Positions 52,099 through 64,000 of a DNA stretch of 64,000 nucleotides are shown in pieces (within the stretch, counting starts at the first letter, position 1; each line of letters starts with the position of its first letter). The notes beneath the pieces were generated by a model. It saw only the letters and a program-made list of their open reading frames with translations. It made no database searches and was not told the DNA's origin. This stretch comes from Stichopus chloronotus (lineage: Eukaryota; Echinodermata; Holothuroidea; Aspidochirotida; Stichopodidae), in NCBI GenBank assembly GCA_021234535.1, contig SFZH01000008.1:6766897-6830896 (forward strand), written 5' to 3'. Made by a program: the position numbers and the translations under genes.

Positions 52099-55000
52099 AT
52101 GGCGAGAGCTCAGTATCTGCCTTTGCTGGTGGTGACTATCCTAATGGTAGCGCACGCACAATTTGCTGGTTTTAACCCTTTCGGTGATGATTTTGGCTTC
52201 GATGTAGGAGACTTCAATCCCGAGGATTACAGTTACGGTTCTTTCGGTAATTGGTACGAGTATTCAGAGGATTCATGGAATTACTTCTATTCGTACTGGG
52301 ATTACTACTTTTACTCCGGTTCGTATCCGTACTACTACTACCACGGCGGCGACTATCCCGAGTTATTCCCCAGTGAAGGCGAAATCATCGAGGGTGTCTA
52401 CTTCTCCGATGTTTTGGATACATTGGGTAAGGCACTCAACAAACCGAACGTTAGGAAATCCATGGCATCGCTCTGCAATGATGTGGCTGACATTCTCTCC
52501 GAATTCTCGGAAGAGGCCGTTGCAATCTGTGAATACATTACCGAAGCCGCCGAGAACGACGAACCCCTAGAAGGATTTGAAGATCTCTGCACTGAAGGCG
52601 ACTACACCGATTATTATCATTATAGCTATGGTTATTATGATTATTCACATAGCTTTTATGATTGGTACGATTGGTATTATTGGTATGATCAATATGACTG
52701 GCTCGACGATGGACACTGGAGCAAACGAAGCATTGCTGACGACGATCACGGTGTGAGATCGAAAAGGGATGTTACCGACGGAAGATCCCATCGGGACATG
52801 GAATGGGAAACCAGATCATATCTGGATGACCTCATTTACTTTCCCCTTGCCGAAGAGTTTGGTATTGCTAATCGGACCAACGTCGTGGCATGTCAAGAGA
52901 TAGGACGTCACATCCGAAACGGCAATAAAAACATGAGCAAGGCATTTCGTGACATGGTTTACTATGCGACAGAAGTAATGATCAACGTAGGCTTAAACCA
53001 TTGCCCTCGAAATGAGAGCTTGGATGACTACTGGTTCCCCCCTAGCTATTCTTGGGGCTACAGCGATTATTCTGAAAGTGACCCATACAATTCTTATTCA
53101 GACTCAGAATCTTACACATATGACTCTGACAGCTACAACTCTGACAGCTACTGGTGGAATTTTGGCAGTGACTCGGAGAGCTGGAGCTACTGGCACGATT
53201 ACTCGGAGAGCTGGCGGAACTCGTATGACTATTCTTATTGGTATGACTCATATGACTATTCTGATTGGTATGACTATTCATATTGGTATGATTATTCATA
53301 TTGGTATGATTATTCATATTGGTACGACTGGTACGATAACTATGACTGGTACGATGACGGATTCATATCTGACGCAGAGGTGATCGGAGTTTTAGCCCAA
53401 ACGATTCTGGGCCATTCCAATATCACTCAGACCTGCGACGATTTGTTCGCGGCAAACGAAACGGGGTCGCTGGAAAGCTTCCGACAAGAGATCACAGAAG
53501 CAACGATTCAAATCATGACAAACTACGATCAGTGTTTGAATCATTTCATAATTTCAAATCAAACAAATGCTGCTTTCTTTCAATTTTACTTTGGCACTTT
53601 GAACTTCACCTATACGTGCGATTTGTTGGTAAATGCGTTTGTCGAACCAGATGAGGAGGTGATGCTTGATCTGGATTTCTTTTGGTATCTAGAGGACAAC
53701 GAGTGGGGAGATTCCTATTACTGGTGGGATTACTACTCGTGGTATGACTATTCATGGAATTATGATTATTCGTGGAATTATGATTATTCATGGACGTATG
53801 ATTATTCATGGCTTACCGACTATTCGTGGGGTGATTATTCTTGGTATGGTGACTACTCATGGTACAGCGATACATGGGATGAACCCGATATATGGAATGG
53901 GTACGAACTCGATTGGATGTTCACATTCCAGGTACTTAGTCCACATATCACACCAGAGTCATGGCTGGCCCTGCTTGGAAAACTTTACAATGCCAGAAAT
54001 TACCAGTGATGCCTTTCAGGAATTTTGCAACGCACTTCCCGAAGAACTCTACGCCTTCGAAATGAGAGAGATGTGTGACGGTGTTGTGCAAGGAGATTTT
54101 GACGCGTGGTTTGACGGTTGCTATCAATTAGGATCACAAGCATCTGGGGAGGGGTTTGAAGAAAATTGGATTGACGACTGGAGAGATTGGGAGAATTATG
54201 GTTTCTTCGATTGGTATGACGAATGGGACCAATGGCGTGATCATTACTTTGAAGGCTGGCGTTGGGATTATGCTCACAATGATTTGTCTTGGCTTGTGTT
54301 AGAATCGTTTGCGGAGGAGTTTTCAGTGAATGATCTGGACAATGACGAAACTTGTGAGAAGATGGGACGAAGCATGGAAAGGAGGGGAAAAAGAATGAAC
54401 GAAACCATCAACGATGTACTGTACCGATGGGCAGAAAAAACAAGTGACCTGGGGATATACTATTGTCTACAACATGAAGATTCTTACGAGGACTACAGTG
54501 TTTCATATGACTCATTCAGTAGCTCTTTTCTAGGTTCGTACGGCACCTACTCGGAGAGTTTGTCCTGGTGGTTCGGCTGGGAGTATTCCTACGACTGGTA
54601 TGACTGGAACGACGGATGGGATGACAACTGGGACGATTATTATTGGAATGAAGATGACAATCATCATTTCTCTGACTTAGACGTTCTGGGAGTAACGGTG
54701 AAAACGATTAAAGGTACAATGAACGCCTATGACGTTTGCCCTGAGCTTTTGAGCCATCGAAATAATGACACCATTGAGGAGTTTGTGGAATCACTCGTGG
54801 ATGGCGTGCTCATGATCTTGAAGAAACCAAACCATTGCTTTGAACATTTAAATATGACGCAGTACAGTGAACCTGGCTTCATTGAAACCTTCTTCGACAG
54901 TGACGATGTGGCTGAAATTTGTGACAGTCTTGCTGAGGCATTTACAAATCCTGCTGAAAATGTTCAGCTGGAGATGGATTTCTTTTGGTTCTTGCAAGAG

Positions 55001-56865
55001 TATAGCTATTATGACATCTCTGTGAGCTGGCTTGACTATGCCAATTACTGGACAGAGGATTTTAATGACGTAAACTGGGCTGTCGTGTTTGAATTTTTAG
55101 CCCCACACATCACACCTGACTCATGGATATCCCTGTTCGGAAAGATTTACAATGCCAGAAATGTATCAGATGCGTTCTTTGATTTCTGCTCGGCTCTCCC
55201 TGGTGAGCTGTATGATTTTGAAATGAGACACATGTGTGACGCTATGTTTGAAGGCGATATCTACGAATGGGAATACGAATGTAAGAGACTGGCTAACGGT
55301 TGGTGGCGATCAGAATATTGGGACTATACTTTTTATGATGACTCGTATAGCTGGTACAACTGGTACGATTCCTACAGCTGGGGAGACAGTTACGACTGGG
55401 TGGAGGAGGAAGAGAGATGGTTCTTTGAAGGGTTACTATCTGCTATCGAAAGCGCAGTTGAGGTAAATCACGGTGACATATTTGACATGTGTGAATTTGG
55501 AGGGGAATTCCTCTTATCCGACAATGAGGAGTACAGTCGAGGGTTCGACAATATAGTCGGAAATGCCTCGATTTACCTCATATACTGGGCTAATGGCATT
55601 TTAGACTGCCAAGGATCATATGGCCAGACCGAGGACTATTGGTGGACAGAGGATGATATTGTACTCTACAGTATGATAAGTGGGATGGTGCTTGGCCTCG
55701 GACGATATGAAAATCGTGATGATTTCTGTGATGAATTCAGTGACGGTTCGTTTCAGCATATTGACGTTATGGGTCATAAATTTGTCGAAAATTTTCATAA
55801 GCTGACGACTGGGAAGTCAAGGTGTATAGACTTTTTCGAAACTCTCTTAAGCTTCGAAGGCGTCTTACCAGAACTCGATGCCGATGCGAGAGAGGTATGT
55901 ACTTTTATGGTTGATAGTTACGCGGATCCAGACGTTGAGCTGGAAGTACCTGATGTAGAGGCTGGAGAAGATCTTACTCTGTTTATCATAGGCATGCTAG
56001 CTAAACTTCACAACAGTGACAACGTTATGGACGTGGCAATCGAATTCTGTGAGAGTTACACCGGCATTCTCAGCTACGTCTTCAGTGATAGGGAAATTGA
56101 TGACCTATGTAGCAACATAGTGGAGGAGGATATCACCTCGGTGGTTCGACAATGCGAAGATAAGTTGATCCCTATTGTGTACGGTGATGAGTATCCTACT
56201 GGTCTGCGGCCTTTACCAGTTGAAGAGATTCTCTATGGAATGACGAGCGAATTGTTCGATATTGACCCTGATGAGGTGACATATGAGACCCCGTGTGTCA
56301 TATTAGACATCGTGGTGAACGGTGACGACAATATCTTAGATATGAGCGAAGAGCTTTTAGATGTGGCATTGAAACAGACTGATACCTTGGTTCAGCGGTG
56401 CATGTGAAGCAAAAGACTTTATATTGCAGGAGATAATGAATGCCATAGAAGATGACGACTCCTACAGTTGGTCATACAACTGGTACAATTGGTATTCATA
56501 CTCGGAAGATGGGGAGGTTGAGTACTTCACCGTAGAGGATGCAGATGTCCTCCTGGGTATCATCACCGGGAAGGGAAGTATCGACGCCGTATGTGAAGAT
56601 ATTACAAGAGCCAATGACAGAGGTGAAAATGCCATCGAATCTCTTGCCGTCGAGCTTCGTGAAGCTGTATTCGGTATCATCAACGACCCGGGCAGGTGCC
56701 GTCTCTTTGTGAATTTTCTCAACGATAAGGCAAAAGAGATAATACCCAGCAGTGTGGATGAAGAGGAGTCTGAATTCGTGCTGGAGTTCACATGGGTCAC
56801 GGGATACACAACTGTGGAAGGATTCTGTGACGATCTTGTAGCTGCCATGACCCAGGATGCAGTCG
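52099..56865 (+). CDS. Giant first exon: four alpha-beta-gamma module triads with aromatic linkers, two frameshifts
   Basis: Frame 1 runs 52099-54000 (634 codons), frame 2 runs 54002-56404 (801 codons) and frame 3 runs 56406-56865, leaving one base of the next codon at donor gttagt. The breaks are single extra bases at about 54001 (AAT-T-ACC) and 56405 (ATG-T-GAA). The first is located by the sister repeat, which reads YNARNVSDAF without interruption. Approximate modules: alpha 52363-52600, 53905-54140, 55070-55290, 55972-56165; beta 52816-53030, 54275-54480, 55410-55612, 56215-56415; gamma 53365-53690, 54668-54990, 55635-55965, 56518-56865. A furin-type site RSKR (residues 220-223) lies before beta 1. 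The strongest module similarity is between alpha 2 and alpha 3 (HITPESWLALLGKLYNARN against HITPDSWISLFGKIYNARN). Confidence 0.88.
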
Positions 56866-59800
56866 GTTAGTGAAATGTTTTCGATTATTTCTGTTTTTAG
56901 TATCTCTCCGGTGAATGAAACTTCATAATTATATCGTTATATACATATTATAATTTCAACTGTCTAAGTTTGAAAAAAATTAGCATTATAAGTGTGAAGG
57001 TAGTTTACACATGAGTATTCAGCATTTTCATGTAAGTTGAATTATTATGTAAGTTACTGAGTTTCATCTTCGGGCTTTCTCATTTTGGTATATCTTTGGA
57101 CGTCTTAAGAATACTTTGCAGATATCCAATTAATTTACGTGAAACGTATTCATTTCACTTTCGCATTTTTTTTTCGTTGTGTCACAGAGGAGTGCAGGGG
57201 CATCGAGGATTGTGCCGGCGTTTGTAATGGTGATGCCAAGCCTGACTGCGCTGGTAAGTGTAATGGAGGCACTGACTACGATTGCGCAGGTCAATGCGAC
57301 GGGTCGGCCTACATTAACAACTGCACAGAATGCGTCGGTGGCAGAACTGGTCGTCCGTGGGACTTCGGTGCCGACAGATGTGGAAACTGCAAGGCATTCA
57401 GTGGTTACTACGAAGTGTGGGACTGTTACGGAACTTGTGACGGCACTGCCTACAGGGACAGATGTGGCACGTGCATTGGTAAGACAAATGGCTCTTACTT
57501 CTAATAATTATTTCATATTACATTTTTACAGTGGATATCATGCAATTTTCGTGACATATACAAAAAATAAGTTTCAATTGTTTCGATTTGTCTTATTAAG
57601 TCGATGTTCTGCATATCAATCAATAAACCAACTGATGCATATTCTATCAAAGTATATGCAAGTGTAGCGCGAGTCTCACGAATATTTTATTGGACTTAGA
57701 TAACCATACTTTCAGTGAAAACATCCACCAAAAACCATTTTAATTGTTATAATACTGTGCCAAAATTTTAGGAAATCATTGAAGTCAACATTTTAGCAAA
57801 CCTTTTTTTGTATCAAATGATACAATGCAGGTGCACACAACTCCTCAAACCCTTGATCTGTCGATTTTATCGGTCCAATCAATTTATTTGCGTGAATCAC
57901 GAAGTCAGAGAAATCAATTTCTCCATCTTTATTTTTTTTTTGATAACTGTGTACACACACACGTTTTAAATTAATTTGAATATTTTCACCACTTATCCCC
58001 TTAATTTCTTGTCGGTTAGGGGGATTGACCGGACGAGACGAGGATTTCAACGAGGACCGTTTTGACTGTCGTGGTATCTGCAACGGCGGTTGGGAGGCAG
58101 ATACCTGCGGATTCTGTGAACCAGCCAGCTTGGTGTCTTATGACGGAGGCAGCAAATACAAAGACTGTAGTGACACCTGCGTCACTCCCGGTGAGTGTGT
58201 ATCATAGAAATAAATGTAGGACATACGCTTCCCTGGTATAGTACCATGTGTGTAACAAGTGGCGCCTACCGAGCACGCAGAAAACCGTATAGAGGTGTGT
58301 GCTTTCGTCGTTCACGCTCTGCTAAGTACTTAAAAGGTTGTGGGACATGCATCTAGCCAGGGGAACAGCGAGCGTTAAACAGAAGTTGCAAAATAAAACC
58401 CTGACTGAAAATCCGTCATGGTTGGAATTTTGTTTACACCTGTTACCGTTTTTGAGATATGACTTTTCAAAGTTTGATAAAATGAAAACAGATGACGTGA
58501 AGTGTTGTACGGTGTCAGTATTTCTTTTGTTAAGCCTATATTTTGCCTCTTAATCACTTAATTACTTCGTTTTACATTGATAAGGGATATCAATATTTTT
58601 GAGGGAAAAATATATGCTTCCCAAAATAAAACCCTGTGGGTATATAAAATTCCCAAATGTTCTTGAAATAAAGATTAAGTATACAAAAGATTTACATAAG
58701 CCATATCATAGTAGTCCATCTCTTGACGTCACAAATCTGCATACTTAGCCAACGTTCTATTCATGATGCTGCTGTGAGACACTCATTTGCCTGTAACATT
58801 GTCAGCCTTTGATGGATTTTGAAAGAAGATGTGGCTATTTTCAACATTCCATTGATAAGTGCACCCGACGCTCGAAAAATGTCATTTTCATGTCACACGA
58901 CCTTTGAATTGCAACAAAATCTTTGTTTATTTCTATTAATTCTTAACCTTGCCTCTGTAAAGCTCCAGTCACGTCACCGTTCACACATGCGTTCCCCACT
59001 TTAACCAAAACGCCGGTAGCCACGAGCTTGGTTCCCCTCTACGCCCACCCCCCCCCCCCTCTACTGTCCTTGGCAAGTGTGGATATGGCTGGATTTTCAC
59101 CTTACAAAAATGTGAGCAGCTTAATATAAAAAAAAAATATTGTTTTCCTTGCGATTGAGTAGTGTGGCATAGGCAAAGAGACAAAGGTTAATGATTTTCC
59201 ATCCGTATCCGACAAGCGTATATCTGATCAGAGTTATTTTTCTGTTGACTACATTGATATCGTTCTCTGACGTCATAACATGTGACCTTACGTAAAGGTC
59301 ATTGCTTGGCACATGCAGGGTTCTTGTTTTTCTTGACTCTTAAATGTCACTTCTCACTGCTTACATATTTACGAGAATTCCTGAGAAAATTGAGTTAAAG
59401 CTTTCTTGCCTTTCAAAAAAATGGATCAAGTGCATCGTGTAGCTGGTTCGTTGAAAATGGCAAAGAAAAAAAATAAAGTTATTCGGGTATGATCAGGTCA
59501 AACTATCAGTAAACTGAAACAAGAAACCCTGGTGATATTTTAGTGCTTGTGAAGTTATCGATGTGAACTAGATTGTTTAAGTTAGTTCATTAATTTGAAT
59601 ACTGTCGATTCTAATACTTTCAGGATTTTCGAGGGCTACTGAGAACGATTGTGGTGAGTGCGTTGGTGGGTCTACCGGATTAGCCGATGACTATGGATAC
59701 AATGTCTGCGGACAGTGTGAATCTGACCCAGATGCCGACGAATCGTCTTGTGAGGGTTGCGATGGGGAACCGAACAGGTAACTACCCACCCACCCCGTCC

Positions 59801-62800
59801 CACCCTCATTCCGATGTCTTTACTCAGGGACAGATATCCCATCAAACTATCTATTGACTCTTTAAAATAAAACAAAAAGTTAGGTTCCACTTCCGACGAA
59901 GGTTTACGGCAAAATATCAACAAAGCTTGTACATCATTGTGTAGATTAAAACAACAAAAAATATGTATATCAAACATTTCAGTCATCACATTTCAGAGAG
60001 GAAATCTTCTAACTTTTACGGATTTCTTTGCTGAAATTATCACTCAAGTTCTCTTTTTTTTTTCTTAAGCAGACTCCAACAGTTACATTAATACTTGAAA
60101 AGAATCGTCAAACACTATTGGCCCATTACAGTCAGGTGACTGTGCATATTTCGTACGGACAATTTTAGAGGAAAATAACAGGCGGATGAATACAATAAAA
60201 ACGTATATCGACATTGTTTTGTCGTCTACACTTTATACAAAACAATGATGGTGCTTTGTTTATCGCGTACGAACATTGTTGACATGTTGTGAATCGCGTT
60301 AACCCTTTTCTCGGGGTTCGTTTTCATTGAAAATCGGGTTTTTCATCAAACAAAATTTGCCTCTGGTTTGGTCGTTTTCATCTAAAGTTTGCATTGTATG
60401 GATTAATAAATTTAATCAACCTTGGACCAGTGAATTAACTAAAGGATAATTCACGATCGAGGGTTAATGCAAGCGATGCATCAGGGCGCATCCCGGGTGC
60501 ATCCATGCAGCGATAGTATTAACGCAGAGGGTGTATTATCCTACTATTAATGTACGGTCCATCGTTTTATTAACCTTTCATTAATTATCTGTATAAGCTA
60601 CAGAGAAGGTGACTGAATACCACATGTGACAGTTCTCTCACGTAAGGTACTCTGAATACGATGAAAAAAAAATATATGTATATATATATAATACTGTGAT
60701 ATACTGTGAAAGATATACTGTGATAAGGTATGTGCACCAAAGTGGTCAGGCTGCACGGTGTGTTGCGAGAAAAGGAAAAAAAAAGAAACCGTAGGGTGGC
60801 AATAAATAGCGTATCACCTCGGGAAGAATGACGTCATAAAGGTACTATCCCAACTTCGAGCCCCAGAAAAAACACCAGACACTTTAAATTCGCGTTTACA
60901 ATAAATCGATCCATTTGACAGATTAAAGTCCAGTAAATCAGTTCTAAGGTTAATTCTTAGTCACGGATTTAAATCTGAACATTTAAATTTTGATTGTTTT
61001 GCTATAGGATAATTGTAATTATAATTTCTTTGAAATTATTTTTATTCATTTCTTTAATATCTTCTTTCTTCCCATTTACTTTTCTTAAATTGTTCAGTGG
61101 ATTAGTATTCGATACGTGTGGTGTATGTGGTGGAGACGGTTCGAACTGCGTGGGAGTGGGTACCGTTGTACCGGACTACATCCCTAACAAATCTGTTTTG
61201 GTAAGCAAAGACGTTTCTGTCGTCTGTTTTGTTATATAAATCAATATTTAGAAAGGAAGGTAATTTGTGAACAAAGAAATAAACAAACTTAACTTTCCAC
61301 AGCTAATGTAGCACAGATAATTGCCTAAGACTCAGCCTCAGCCTAACCTTATTATTTTCACGCATTATTTTTCCTCCATAAGTCTTCTTTTTTTTAAAAC
61401 GATTTTTCCAACCCTTACACTATAATGAGAAACCTAATAGATTTCATATTTGTTTACAACAATCAGAACGAAAATATTTTCTTTACCGAAAGTATATTCT
61501 TTTTGTGATGTAAGGAGTACTGGTCAGCAAATTCCTCGGTGGCATTGTTTAAATATTCATAACAGTGAATTGCATTTTTTTTATTTATTAGAACTTAAGA
61601 CAAGAGATGAGCCAGTGCACTTGTTTGTGACGTTGCATTTGTGTTCAGCTTTTGTTCGCTAATGCCTTTGTACCGAATTACAATGAATATTTCCAGAGAG
61701 ATATTGTGTCACTCAGGCTCCTTTAATGACAGAATAGGTCTCGTCATGTTTTTTTTTCTTACAATGTTCCAAAACAAATAATTTATTCCACTTTAACCAA
61801 TTAATTCCTACCAGGTGACAGTATTCGGGGCTGGTTTCACTGAGGGCTCCGACCTGACCTGCGTCTTCTATGACGAGAATGGAGATACCACAGATGGTGA
61901 AGTAGTCGATCGGTGGAGCAGTGTGGTAATAATATGCGAGGCAGATCTTGATCCAGGTAAAGTAAACTACATCCTCGGAGGTTTAATTTTACCTTCCTTC
62001 CAACCTCTGAATAAAAAATCCGGTGAAGGGATTTAAGGGGGGGGGGGGGTTAAGGGATACGTATAGAGGATGAGCGATGTTAGTCAGAGACAGAGGCAAT
62101 AGTTTAACTAGATAAATTCCTGTCTACTATACTTAGAAATACCACTGCAAATGGGAGGGCAAGGGAGAGAGAAGAGGCAGTGCTTAAAGGTGGGGTCATG
62201 CTGGCCTCATTTAGGCTGTGACACCTATAGGCTGCATCTCAATGATTATAACAGCGATTCTTATTCGTAAGCGACGAAAAAGAAAATCCTCCTATCACTG
62301 TATATATCTGTATTCATGTTCTCTTAGTTGTCGTTTCGCTACAATTTTGACAGGCGAATACACTGTGGGTGTGAGACGAGATTCAGACAACCCAAATGAT
62401 ATCCGAGCCAACATCAAAGTATACGAAGGTATGGAAATTTTTCTGCAAATGTGTTTCGTTTTTTTTTTCTTTTGTCAAAAACTTTGCATTTCATCGGTTG
62501 CAAACAACTTTATTTCATTTTTTGGCACCTGATTTTTTCAATATTTTAGCAAATACTACAACTTTATGGATAATACAAAAAAAGGAACTAAGACATTTTT
62601 TTTTAATGTTGCTATCCTATGCTTTAGACTTGCTTCAATTATCTATGAAAAACCGCTTCAGAACTAAGGACTCGCTTTGATGAAATTTAAATATACTGAT
62701 CTGAATCAATGCTCACCTGAGTTTGGTTTTACAAAACTAAACTTGGAAGTTTCATGTTCGAAAATGGAAACCTCCATGTAATAGTAATAAGTATAAAGTT

Positions 62801-64000
62801 ATTATCATTATGGTCGTTATTATCATTATTTGACTATATTTGCTACGTTAAACTGAAATCAATTGTTATTATATTTTTTCTCCGCTTTTAGATGTGACGG
62901 TTACCAGTTTCTCTCCGACCGAAGTGGACATTGATCCATCTCTAACAGAAGAAGAGTTCAACATCACCATCACCGTCTCTGGGTCTCCGTTTACTGCCAT
63001 GGAGAGCGAAACGGACTACTCCGTCGTGGCCTCACTCATCATCGAGGATGCAAGTGGTAAGAAGGGACAGCGCAAGTCGAATAAGGGTTTATTTTTTATT
63101 TGGTCTGTCCGGGCTGAAGAGGAAGCAAGATTTTTAGAAACAATACAAGAATTAATGTCTAAATATGGCACTCTTTGATTCCAGTGCGCATTGTAAATTG
63201 TCAGCGCTCATCACGATGATCATAATCAATCTTCTTTTTATCCTACTTAACGCTCTAATTAGTGAATTTTTTTCCGTGGCGCAGACGTGCCAGGTTGGTA
63301 TCAAGTAGAAGAGAATGATGGAGGATTAACGACGATACATGCTAAATTTTGTTTTCATCAAACAACAGATCCTGCTTTAAATGATGGAGATGTAGTCAAG
63401 GAGTGGTAGGATAATCGGAGAGTAAACAACTCCCCCCCCCCCCCACACCTCTCCCTCTTCTACTTAGGTCTGATGTAGATGATGTTTACGCCTGTAGAAG
63501 AGAAAAGTTTTTTGTTCAGGTGGCAGGCGTGTCATTCCGATAATAGAATGCTTCCAGCAGTTTTCTTTTGAGGGAGAGGGTGGTAAAAATTGGTAACGGT
63601 GGTAAAGGGTGGTAACGGTGGTAAAAATTTGCCCTCTAATTCTATTGGACAGGATGGTTCATAATGAGAGTCTGAGAATGTGGGAAGTGCCAGATATCCG
63701 ATTTACCCAATTATGTACCTGCTCGTGTTTTCTCCTTCCCCCTCCTCGACCCTCTCTTTCTACATTTTTAATTGCGCACGCCTCTTTTTTTATTTTTGTT
63801 CCTCGACAGGTGACACATTTGTCTTTTACGGTAAATTCATCTCCTCTAACGAGTTCATCGTCCCGATTAATATGCCGAGGATATCCGGACAATACACCCT
63901 CACCCCTTCCGTTAATCAGGTCCACGGTCTCGGTACGGAGAGTTTCACTGGGACAGTTTATTACCCGGCACCAGCCATGGAGGAAGCTAAGTTCTCTGAT
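52099..64000 (+). CDS. Secreted aromatic/acidic repeat protein with Cys-rich and beta-sandwich C-terminal domains (3' end outside window)
   Basis: Exons: 52099-56865, 57188-57478, 58020-58190, 59624-59777, 61098-61200, 61815-61956, 62354-62428, 62892-63056 and 63810 to beyond 64000, all in compatible phase. The start ATG (cAAAATGGCG) opens a signal peptide of about 20 residues (MARAQYLPLLVVTILMVAHA). The giant first exon encodes about 1588 residues: four triads of small helical modules with a fixed Cys count (3-2-3), separated by linkers dominated by Tyr, Trp, Asp and Ser. The following exons add CAGxCxG cysteine repeats, CVGGxTG motifs and CGVCGGDGSNC. Then comes an IPT/TIG-like strand-rich domain (VTVFGAGFTEGSDLTC) and further beta-sandwich-like domains. 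Many N-glycosylation sequons are present. I do not recognise the protein; signal peptide, sequons and cysteines point to the secretory pathway. A fibrous, matrix or adhesive role is inference from composition. Two one-base insertions in exon 1 interrupt the frame. Confidence 0.85.
53223..53355 (+). repeat. Tandem 18-bp coding repeat (YDYSYW unit)
   Basis: TATTGGTATGATTATTCA-type units recur about five times, encoding SYWYDY blocks, then degrade into DWYDNYDWYDD. The codons are nearly identical between units, so this linker has expanded recently at DNA level. Confidence 0.9.
53728..53862 (+). repeat. Tandem 15-18-bp coding repeat (DYSWNY unit)
   Basis: GATTATTC(A/G)TGG recurs with variable two-residue spacers (NY, TY, LT, G, YG), encoding repeated DYSW. 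It joins gamma 1 to alpha 2. Confidence 0.9.
57188..57478 (+). CDS. Mosaic gene exon 2: CAGxCxG cysteine repeats
   Basis: Acceptor gtcacag; completes a Glu codon. Encodes DCAGVCNG, DCAGKCNG and DCAGQCDG in series, then CVGGRTGRPWDFGADRCGNC and DCYGTCDG. 291 bp, phase 1 on both sides. Confidence 0.9.
58020..58190 (+). CDS. Mosaic gene exon 3: further cysteine repeat
   Basis: Encodes GLTGRDEDFNEDRFDCRGIC, CNGGWEADTCGFC and KDCSDTCVTPG. 171 bp, phase 1 on both sides. It completes the CIGG-LTG motif split from exon 2, which confirms the junction. Confidence 0.87.
59624..59777 (+). CDS. Mosaic gene exon 4: CVGGxTG and acidic Cys segment
   Basis: Acceptor ctttcag; encodes DCGECVGGSTGLADDYGYNV, CGQC and CEGCDGEPN. 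Enters phase 1 and leaves phase 2. Confidence 0.88.
59778..61097. other. Intron 4 of the mosaic gene
   Basis: 1.3 kb with no recognised exon. It contains a short TA-rich microsatellite near 60675-60692 and an otherwise unremarkable AT-rich sequence. Confidence 0.5.
61098..61200 (+). CDS. Mosaic gene exon 5: CGVCGGDGSNC
   Basis: Encodes GLVFDTCGVCGGDGSNCVGV and a Pro-containing linker (VVPDYIPNKSVL). The CGVCGGDGSxC motif is shared with several extracellular families such as ADAMTS proteins. Leaves phase 0. Confidence 0.88.
61815..61956 (+). CDS. Mosaic gene exon 6: IPT/TIG-like domain, first part
   Basis: Encodes VTVFGAGFTEGSDLTCVFYD and WSSVVIICEADLDPG. The GxGF....L.C.F.....C pattern fits an IPT/TIG fold; the assignment is by eye. 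Confidence 0.85.
62354..62428 (+). CDS. Mosaic gene exon 7: end of IPT-like domain
   Basis: Encodes EYTVGVRRDSDNPNDIRANI and KVYE, the last strands of the domain. 75 bp, phase 1 on both sides. Confidence 0.83.
62892..63056 (+). CDS. Mosaic gene exon 8: second beta-sandwich-like domain
   Basis: Encodes VTVTSFSPTEVDIDPSLTEE and EFNITITVSGSPFTAMESET with an N-glycosylation sequon. 165 bp, phase 1 on both sides. Confidence 0.85.
63575..63632. repeat. Short GGTGGTAA-type tandem repeat
   Basis: GGTGGTAAAAATTGGTAACG is followed by GGTGGTAAAGGGTGGTAACG and GGTGGTAAAAATTTG, in intron 8 of the mosaic gene. Confidence 0.8.
63810..64000 (+). CDS. Mosaic gene exon 9, cut by the window edge
   Basis: Acceptor tcgacag; encodes DTFVFYGKFISSNEFIVPIN, GQYTLTPSVNQVHG and FTGTVYYPAPAMEEAKFSD, still open at the last base. 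It continues the strand-rich domain of exon 8. Confidence 0.83.
   Translation, partial: MTHLSFTVNSSPLTSSSSRLICRGYPDNTPSPLPLIRSTVSVRRVSLGQFITRHQPWRKLSSL

Follow-up and report, generated by a model that had tools for sequence, protein, structure and literature searches.

A predicted single-pass REJ/GPS receptor gene with an aromatic and acidic N-terminal exon in the sea cucumber Stichopus chloronotus

The PKD1 (receptor for egg jelly, REJ) family of the sea urchin was described by Gunaratne et al. in 2007 with the cloning of ten SpREJ cDNAs (PMC1934368). SpREJ8 and SpREJ9 are described there as having one transmembrane segment and a GPS, with no known domain upstream of REJ. SpREJ9, already cloned as a full-length cDNA, has 2,965 aa with 76% Ser at 173-284 and 528-694; its transcripts increase in development to a peak at 65 h, and its tissue expression is not testis-restricted, unlike that of SpREJ1 (PMC1934368). 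This was the only relevant paper that we found on SpREJ8 and SpREJ9. A coral REJ protein of a skeleton proteome is multi-pass and hence of a different type (PMC4890752), and the mentions of 'rej' that we found in PMC9763293 refer to graft rejection. We analysed 64,000 nucleotides of Stichopus chloronotus (assembly GCA_021234535.1, contig SFZH01000008.1, positions 6,766,897 to 6,830,896, forward strand), hereafter the window. The predicted gene model shows that the window contains the 5′ half of a PKD1-family gene for an echinoderm REJ/GPS receptor with a single membrane pass; judged by description only, the receptor most likely belongs to the SpREJ9 type. The original prediction had read the same region as an undescribed secreted mosaic protein, a structural, fibrous or adhesive component of the matrix.

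The gene spans positions 52099 to 80622 (window numbering) in 25 exons; the window ends inside it, and it continues for about 16.6 kb. Its downstream part was traced by TBLASTN of a Holothuria leucospilota protein (P0002; 2,836 aa with a REJ domain, named 'Polycystic kidney disease 1-related protein' in its source) against the window and 39 kb of the species' own genome. The P0002 exons downstream of exon 1 align along the whole gene, and the splice joins among GT/GC-AG sites, including one GC donor, are in phase and without a stop. The open stretch at 63285-63405, which has an AG acceptor, reaches a stop and is placed between two true exons, was left out of the best splice against P0002 and rejected as an exon. 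It could serve as an alternative gene end.

The predicted full product of 3,204 aa consists, in this order, of a hydrophobic leader, an aromatic/acidic exon, a CAGxCxG/CGVCGGDG region, an IPT-like part, REJ, GPS, one transmembrane segment and a tail. The REJ domain (PF02010) was matched at E 7.8e-76 (255.9 bits against a cut-off of 25) over profile positions 1-451 of 452, and GPS (PF01825) at E 6.9e-12 (46.1 bits against 22.5). Besides the leader, hydropathy gave a single strong C-terminal segment, at residue 3014 after the GPS, which leaves a tail of about 170 residues. The leader itself, with a hydropathy peak of 1.88 at residue 7, agrees with the signal peptide of the original prediction as far as hydropathy can tell. 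The mosaic with an extracellular front was also borne out: splicing most likely joins exon 1 to the exons with Cys-rich and IPT-like parts, the CAGxCxG repeats and CGVCGGDGSNC are in place, and the order is the same in database protein models of H. leucospilota and, with other linker chemistry, of other echinoderms. 'Secreted' did not hold for a product with REJ, GPS, a transmembrane segment and a tail. Nor is this an undescribed protein or a new kind of matrix component; it belongs to the known REJ/PKD1 receptor family, and the plan of SpREJ9 is the same as far as the 2007 paper describes it (PMC1934368). A structural or adhesive role of the predicted protein is nevertheless possible.

The IPT-like label has support through homologues only. 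PF01833 (IPT/TIG) was absent from the matches of the window product at E ≤ 1; it scored above the cut-off in counterparts from Diadema (P0004, 1.6e-5) and Ptychodera (P0008, 2.5e-5) and below it in Patiria (P0005, 0.0078). The motif CGVCGGDxSxC, which we take to resemble a short motif of ADAMTS-type proteins, is one motif only, and protease or thrombospondin domains were not among the listed domain matches of the window product.

The database searches returned P0002 together with counterparts from urchins, sea stars, crinoids and an acorn worm. The exon 1 protein matched two proteins at E ≤ 0.01: P0001, with 50% identity over 100% of the query, and P0002 (E 1.7e-196), whose best local alignment has 39% identity over 39% of the query. 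Further searches with the C-terminal halves of P0002 (scored on the 7,995 candidates with most shared words) and of P0003, the Lytechinus pictus counterpart, found proteins of Lytechinus, Diadema, Patiria, Acanthaster, Anneissia, Antedon and Ptychodera (two proteins). P0010 (4,079 aa), also from H. leucospilota, is a divergent paralogue and possibly an SpREJ8-like partner; it has D and C modules (see below) and two rounds of CAGxCxG-like repeats. Two remote REJ proteins of different look, P0012 and P0013, were set aside. REJ is present in P0003-P0010, and one C-terminal hydrophobic segment was found in all nine close homologues that reach that far (P0002-P0010), P0001 and P0011 stopping earlier. 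In a tree of the shared half (11 rows), the window product and P0002 are sisters (100/100); within every other echinoderm class the two species group together, with Ptychodera placed outside. The tree was midpoint-rooted with P0010 as a long branch, and we make no claim on its deep order. SpREJ9 is the likely named counterpart, compared by description and not by alignment, because P0003 resembles it in length (2,945 aa) and has 58% and 67% Ser at its two Ser-rich coordinates. REJ-domain exons also matched the S. chloronotus genome at 11 separate places (contigs C1, C4, C5, C7, C8, C10, C18 and C23), a number close to the ten REJ genes of S. purpuratus.

Iterated profiles resolved exon 1 into four units of three modules in the order D, B, C, in keeping with the ordered small Cys modules of the original prediction. 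All 32 cysteines of the exon fall in the 3+2+3 pattern of the units, and none in the linkers between modules. In an alignment of 21 units (one from the window and 20 from homologues, picked partly for short linkers), three cysteines in D, two in B and three in C were invariant in 21/21 and were the sole invariant columns, even in units that the B profile missed. No Pfam family matched any of the 21 units at E ≤ 0.01. Structure prediction of one triad with AlphaFold2 (window unit 3 with 17 homologous units) gave an all-helical model of 13 helices (pLDDT 77.5, pTM 0.75), in which linker residues 82-100 stayed under a pLDDT of 50; a close solved fold for this model was sought and none was found. 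Among the protein-search matches, the unit was seen solely in echinoderm and acorn-worm REJ proteins. D and C are present in 10 of the 11 homologues examined, and the B profile matched in 6 of 12 proteins (window, P0001, P0002, P0006, P0007 and P0010). The exception, P0008 (Ptychodera flava, 'serine-rich adhesin for platelets-like'), has a Ser/Asp/Gln-rich N-terminus in which no D-B-C unit was found, joined to the same REJ half; its acorn-worm sister P0011 retains D and C.

Unit number varies between homologues. Four D-B-C units were counted in the window gene and P0001, three in P0002 and in the crinoid P0007, while P0010 has five D and six C modules. In the crinoid P0006, D and C each occur four times, and four units are therefore not peculiar to the lineage of the window. 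At their starts, D2 and D3 show 83% identity over a run of 60 bases, so the extra unit relative to P0002 fits a unit duplication. Basic R/K-x-K-R motifs occur at product residues 220-223 and 762-765, one of them in the D1-B1 linker; we presume that they could be furin-type cleavage sites.

The predicted Tyr/Trp/Asp/Ser bias was confirmed for exon 1 (1,588 aa; D 11.8, Y 9.5, S 8.5, W 5.0%) and its aromatic part proved to sit in the stretches between modules. The linkers (724 residues) contain 16.7% Y, 15.6% D, 11.9% S and 9.8% W, with 228 aromatic residues and 170 D/E against 19 K/R, and the most frequent residues of the module cores (844 residues) are E 10.2, L 9.0, D 8.6 and F 7.0%. By eye, linker chemistry differs by class: Tyr/Trp/Asp in sea cucumbers, Ser/Trp in urchins, Asp/Gly/Ser in a sea star and His/Tyr/Gly in a crinoid. 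Faster change of linkers than of cores was not supported within sea cucumbers. Aligned identity to P0001 was 55.7% in linkers and 58.5% in cores, and to P0002 48.3% and 46.7%, values that biased composition raises for the linkers. Gaps are commoner in the linkers, with 609/724 residues aligned against 838/844 in the cores for P0001, and 484/724 against 640/844 for P0002.

Such Y/W/D/S-rich linkers resemble adhesive or fibrous proteins in kind, and proteins with a GPS can in principle shed their ectodomain. The extreme composition and the stop-ending stretch at 63285-63405 could thus be read as signs of a genuinely secreted matrix protein with a structural or adhesive role, made from a shorter transcript that ends before the transmembrane exon or released at the GPS. 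We regard this as unlikely, since that stretch is absent from the best splice and since REJ and one C-terminal hydrophobic segment occur together in the window product and in all of P0003-P0010. An equally improbable role is that of a sperm receptor for the egg coat like SpREJ1 or SpREJ3, of the same family, with fast-changing N-terminal units for species recognition. Identity to the urchin counterpart is indeed 27% in exon 1 against 51-52% in the rest. However, SpREJ9 transcripts are reported to rise in development and not to be testis-restricted (PMC1934368), and the domain scans of the product and the units found no lectin domain.

Exon 1 extends over 4,767 bases from its ATG to the GT donor at 56865, in agreement with the predicted 4.8-kb exon. 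It is not one open frame, however: single-base frameshifts at two sites, near 54.0 and 56.4 kb, of which the original prediction made no mention, place it in three successive frames (stop-free stretches of 648, 904 and 165 codons), and its product is obtained when they are read across. The search of the assembly around the frameshifts matched only the locus itself and an internal repeat. Sequence error and a recent lesion are both compatible with these data; sequence error is likely, because all three frame segments are similarly conserved. Programmed +1 frameshifting at two TGA codons was considered, since a TGA closes the old frame close to each shift, and was rejected. At the second site P0001 and P0002 put the shift about 30 bases upstream of the stop, and at the first an ordinary change of one base, a few bases ahead of the stop, agrees with the D3 repeat and the homologues. 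A decaying pseudogene of the REJ family, to which the two frameshifts would point, is very unlikely. Protein identities to P0001 are 56.7, 56.2 and 62.1% across the three segments, P0001 has no stop in the matching part, and the remaining exons are free of stops; at E ≤ 0.001 the assembly yielded no second copy of either exon 1 or exon 2. Sequence error is also the simpler explanation.

Table 1. Positions of the exons, D-B-C units and long linkers in window numbering. Base coordinates of units were converted by hand from residue positions.
Feature	Position	Strand	Remarks
Exon 1: ATG, hydrophobic leader, four D-B-C units, aromatic/acidic linkers	52099..56865	+	
D-B-C unit 1	52402..53640	+	D 52402-52590, B 52822-53010, C 53380-53640
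Longest aromatic/acidic linker	53011..53379	+	18-base tandem repeat at 53251-53329
Second long aromatic/acidic linker	53641..53952	+	18-base tandem repeat at 53743-53811
D-B-C unit 2	53953..54943	+	D 53953-54124 (contains first frameshift), B 54284-54472, C 54683-54943
D-B-C unit 3 (structure-predicted unit)	55115..55918	+	D 55115-55282, B 55421-55612, C 55673-55918
D-B-C unit 4	55985..56849	+	D 55985-56158, B 56222-56408 (contains second frameshift), C 56544-56849
Exon 2: CAGxCxG repeats and Cys-rich region	57188..57478	+	85% identity to H. leucospilota
Exon 3: Cys-rich	58020..58190	+	
Exon 4: Cys-rich	59624..59777	+	
Exon 5: CGVCGGDGSNC	61098..61200	+	
Exon 6: IPT-like, first part	61815..61956	+	PF01833 in homologues
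Exon 7: IPT-like, second part	62354..62428	+	
Exon 8: conserved, between IPT-like and PKD/REJ parts	62892..63056	+	
Exon 9	63810..64000 in window, true end 64004	+	REJ, GPS, transmembrane segment and tail lie beyond

The rest of the window was scanned as well. The longest stop-free stretch in bases 1-52000 has 161 codons, far below the two long ones of exon 1; ten of the longer other open stretches there gave no Pfam match above the cut-off, and Rfam and tRNA scans of the window gave no matches. At 1049-1346, tandem repeats rich in ATC/ATT produce a minus-strand open stretch of acidic, low-complexity sequence without a Pfam match.

From this architecture we infer a long adhesive or force-sensing surface receptor. 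Cleavage at the GPS with both parts kept at the surface is described for SpREJ3 and human PKD1 (PMC1934368), and parts of the human REJ module unfold under force (PMC3677617; also discussed in PMC1934368). As in SpREJ3 and human polycystin-1, the protein would probably be cut at the GPS with its halves staying together. Disulphide-held units and aromatic/acidic linkers would form a long, negatively charged, sticky arm able to bind matrix, mucus or another cell; a pull on this arm may be transmitted, via a REJ region able to extend, as far as the GPS and the tail, and the tail would recruit partners in the cytosol. Two tail motifs, P-x-V-T/A-L/M-V in 8 of 10 tails and PPxY in 7 of 10, weakly suggest such partners.

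Overall, we hold it rather probable that the gene encodes a single-pass REJ/GPS receptor with a long N-terminal arm that is adhesive or passes on force. Several points weigh against this. We infer its functional part. The link to SpREJ9 rests on description and not on sequence alignment; the 2007 paper calls the SpREJ9 REJ 'partial', whereas current Pfam finds it full-length in the urchin counterpart, and the two L. pictus serine values lie below the 76% reported for SpREJ9 (PMC1934368). PPxY, in 7 of 10 tails only, could be chance in Pro-rich sequence, and with two frameshifts this gene copy could be broken. Furthermore, 54 of the 151 tyrosines of exon 1 have at least three acidic neighbours, against a shuffle mean of 51.8, and 192 of 500 shuffles reach 54. 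The acidic context is not above shuffles, and tyrosine sulphation as a special signal was rejected; only composition hints at it, and sulphation of exon 1 is conceivable. More tentatively, the D-B-C unit may define an undescribed all-helical eight-Cys ectodomain family whose linkers are re-made in each class, giving a force-sensing GPS receptor a tunable adhesive brush; we consider this doubtful as a whole.

What is new here is the eight-cysteine unit, together with linkers whose chemistry is specific to the class. Composition-biased exons that look like those of matrix proteins can form the outside of receptors in the polycystin family, and the gene provides single-pass relatives in which a human disease gene family can be tested.

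REJ and GPS are common to the window product, human polycystin-1, PKDREJ and SpREJ3-6. In these proteins a channel-like part accompanies eleven transmembrane segments, and the human proteins and five SpREJs carry PLAT (PMC1934368). In contrast, the window product has one such segment and gave no PLAT match at E ≤ 1, and so lacks the eleven segments and the PLAT domain that distinguish polycystin-1 proper. With SpREJ8 and SpREJ9 as described (PMC1934368) it shares the single transmembrane segment, no known domain upstream of REJ (where present Pfam scores the IPT-like region as PF01833 in some homologues) and, with SpREJ9, a low-complexity N-terminus. The urchin L. pictus has Ser/Trp-run linkers and three units, unlike the Tyr/Trp/Asp/Ser linkers and four units found here. 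The H. leucospilota protein P0002 differs in having three units and other linker sequences, but its part order is identical from exon 1 to the tail, with 47% identity of aligned residues in exon 1 and 73% in the Cys/IPT and PKD/REJ/GPS regions.

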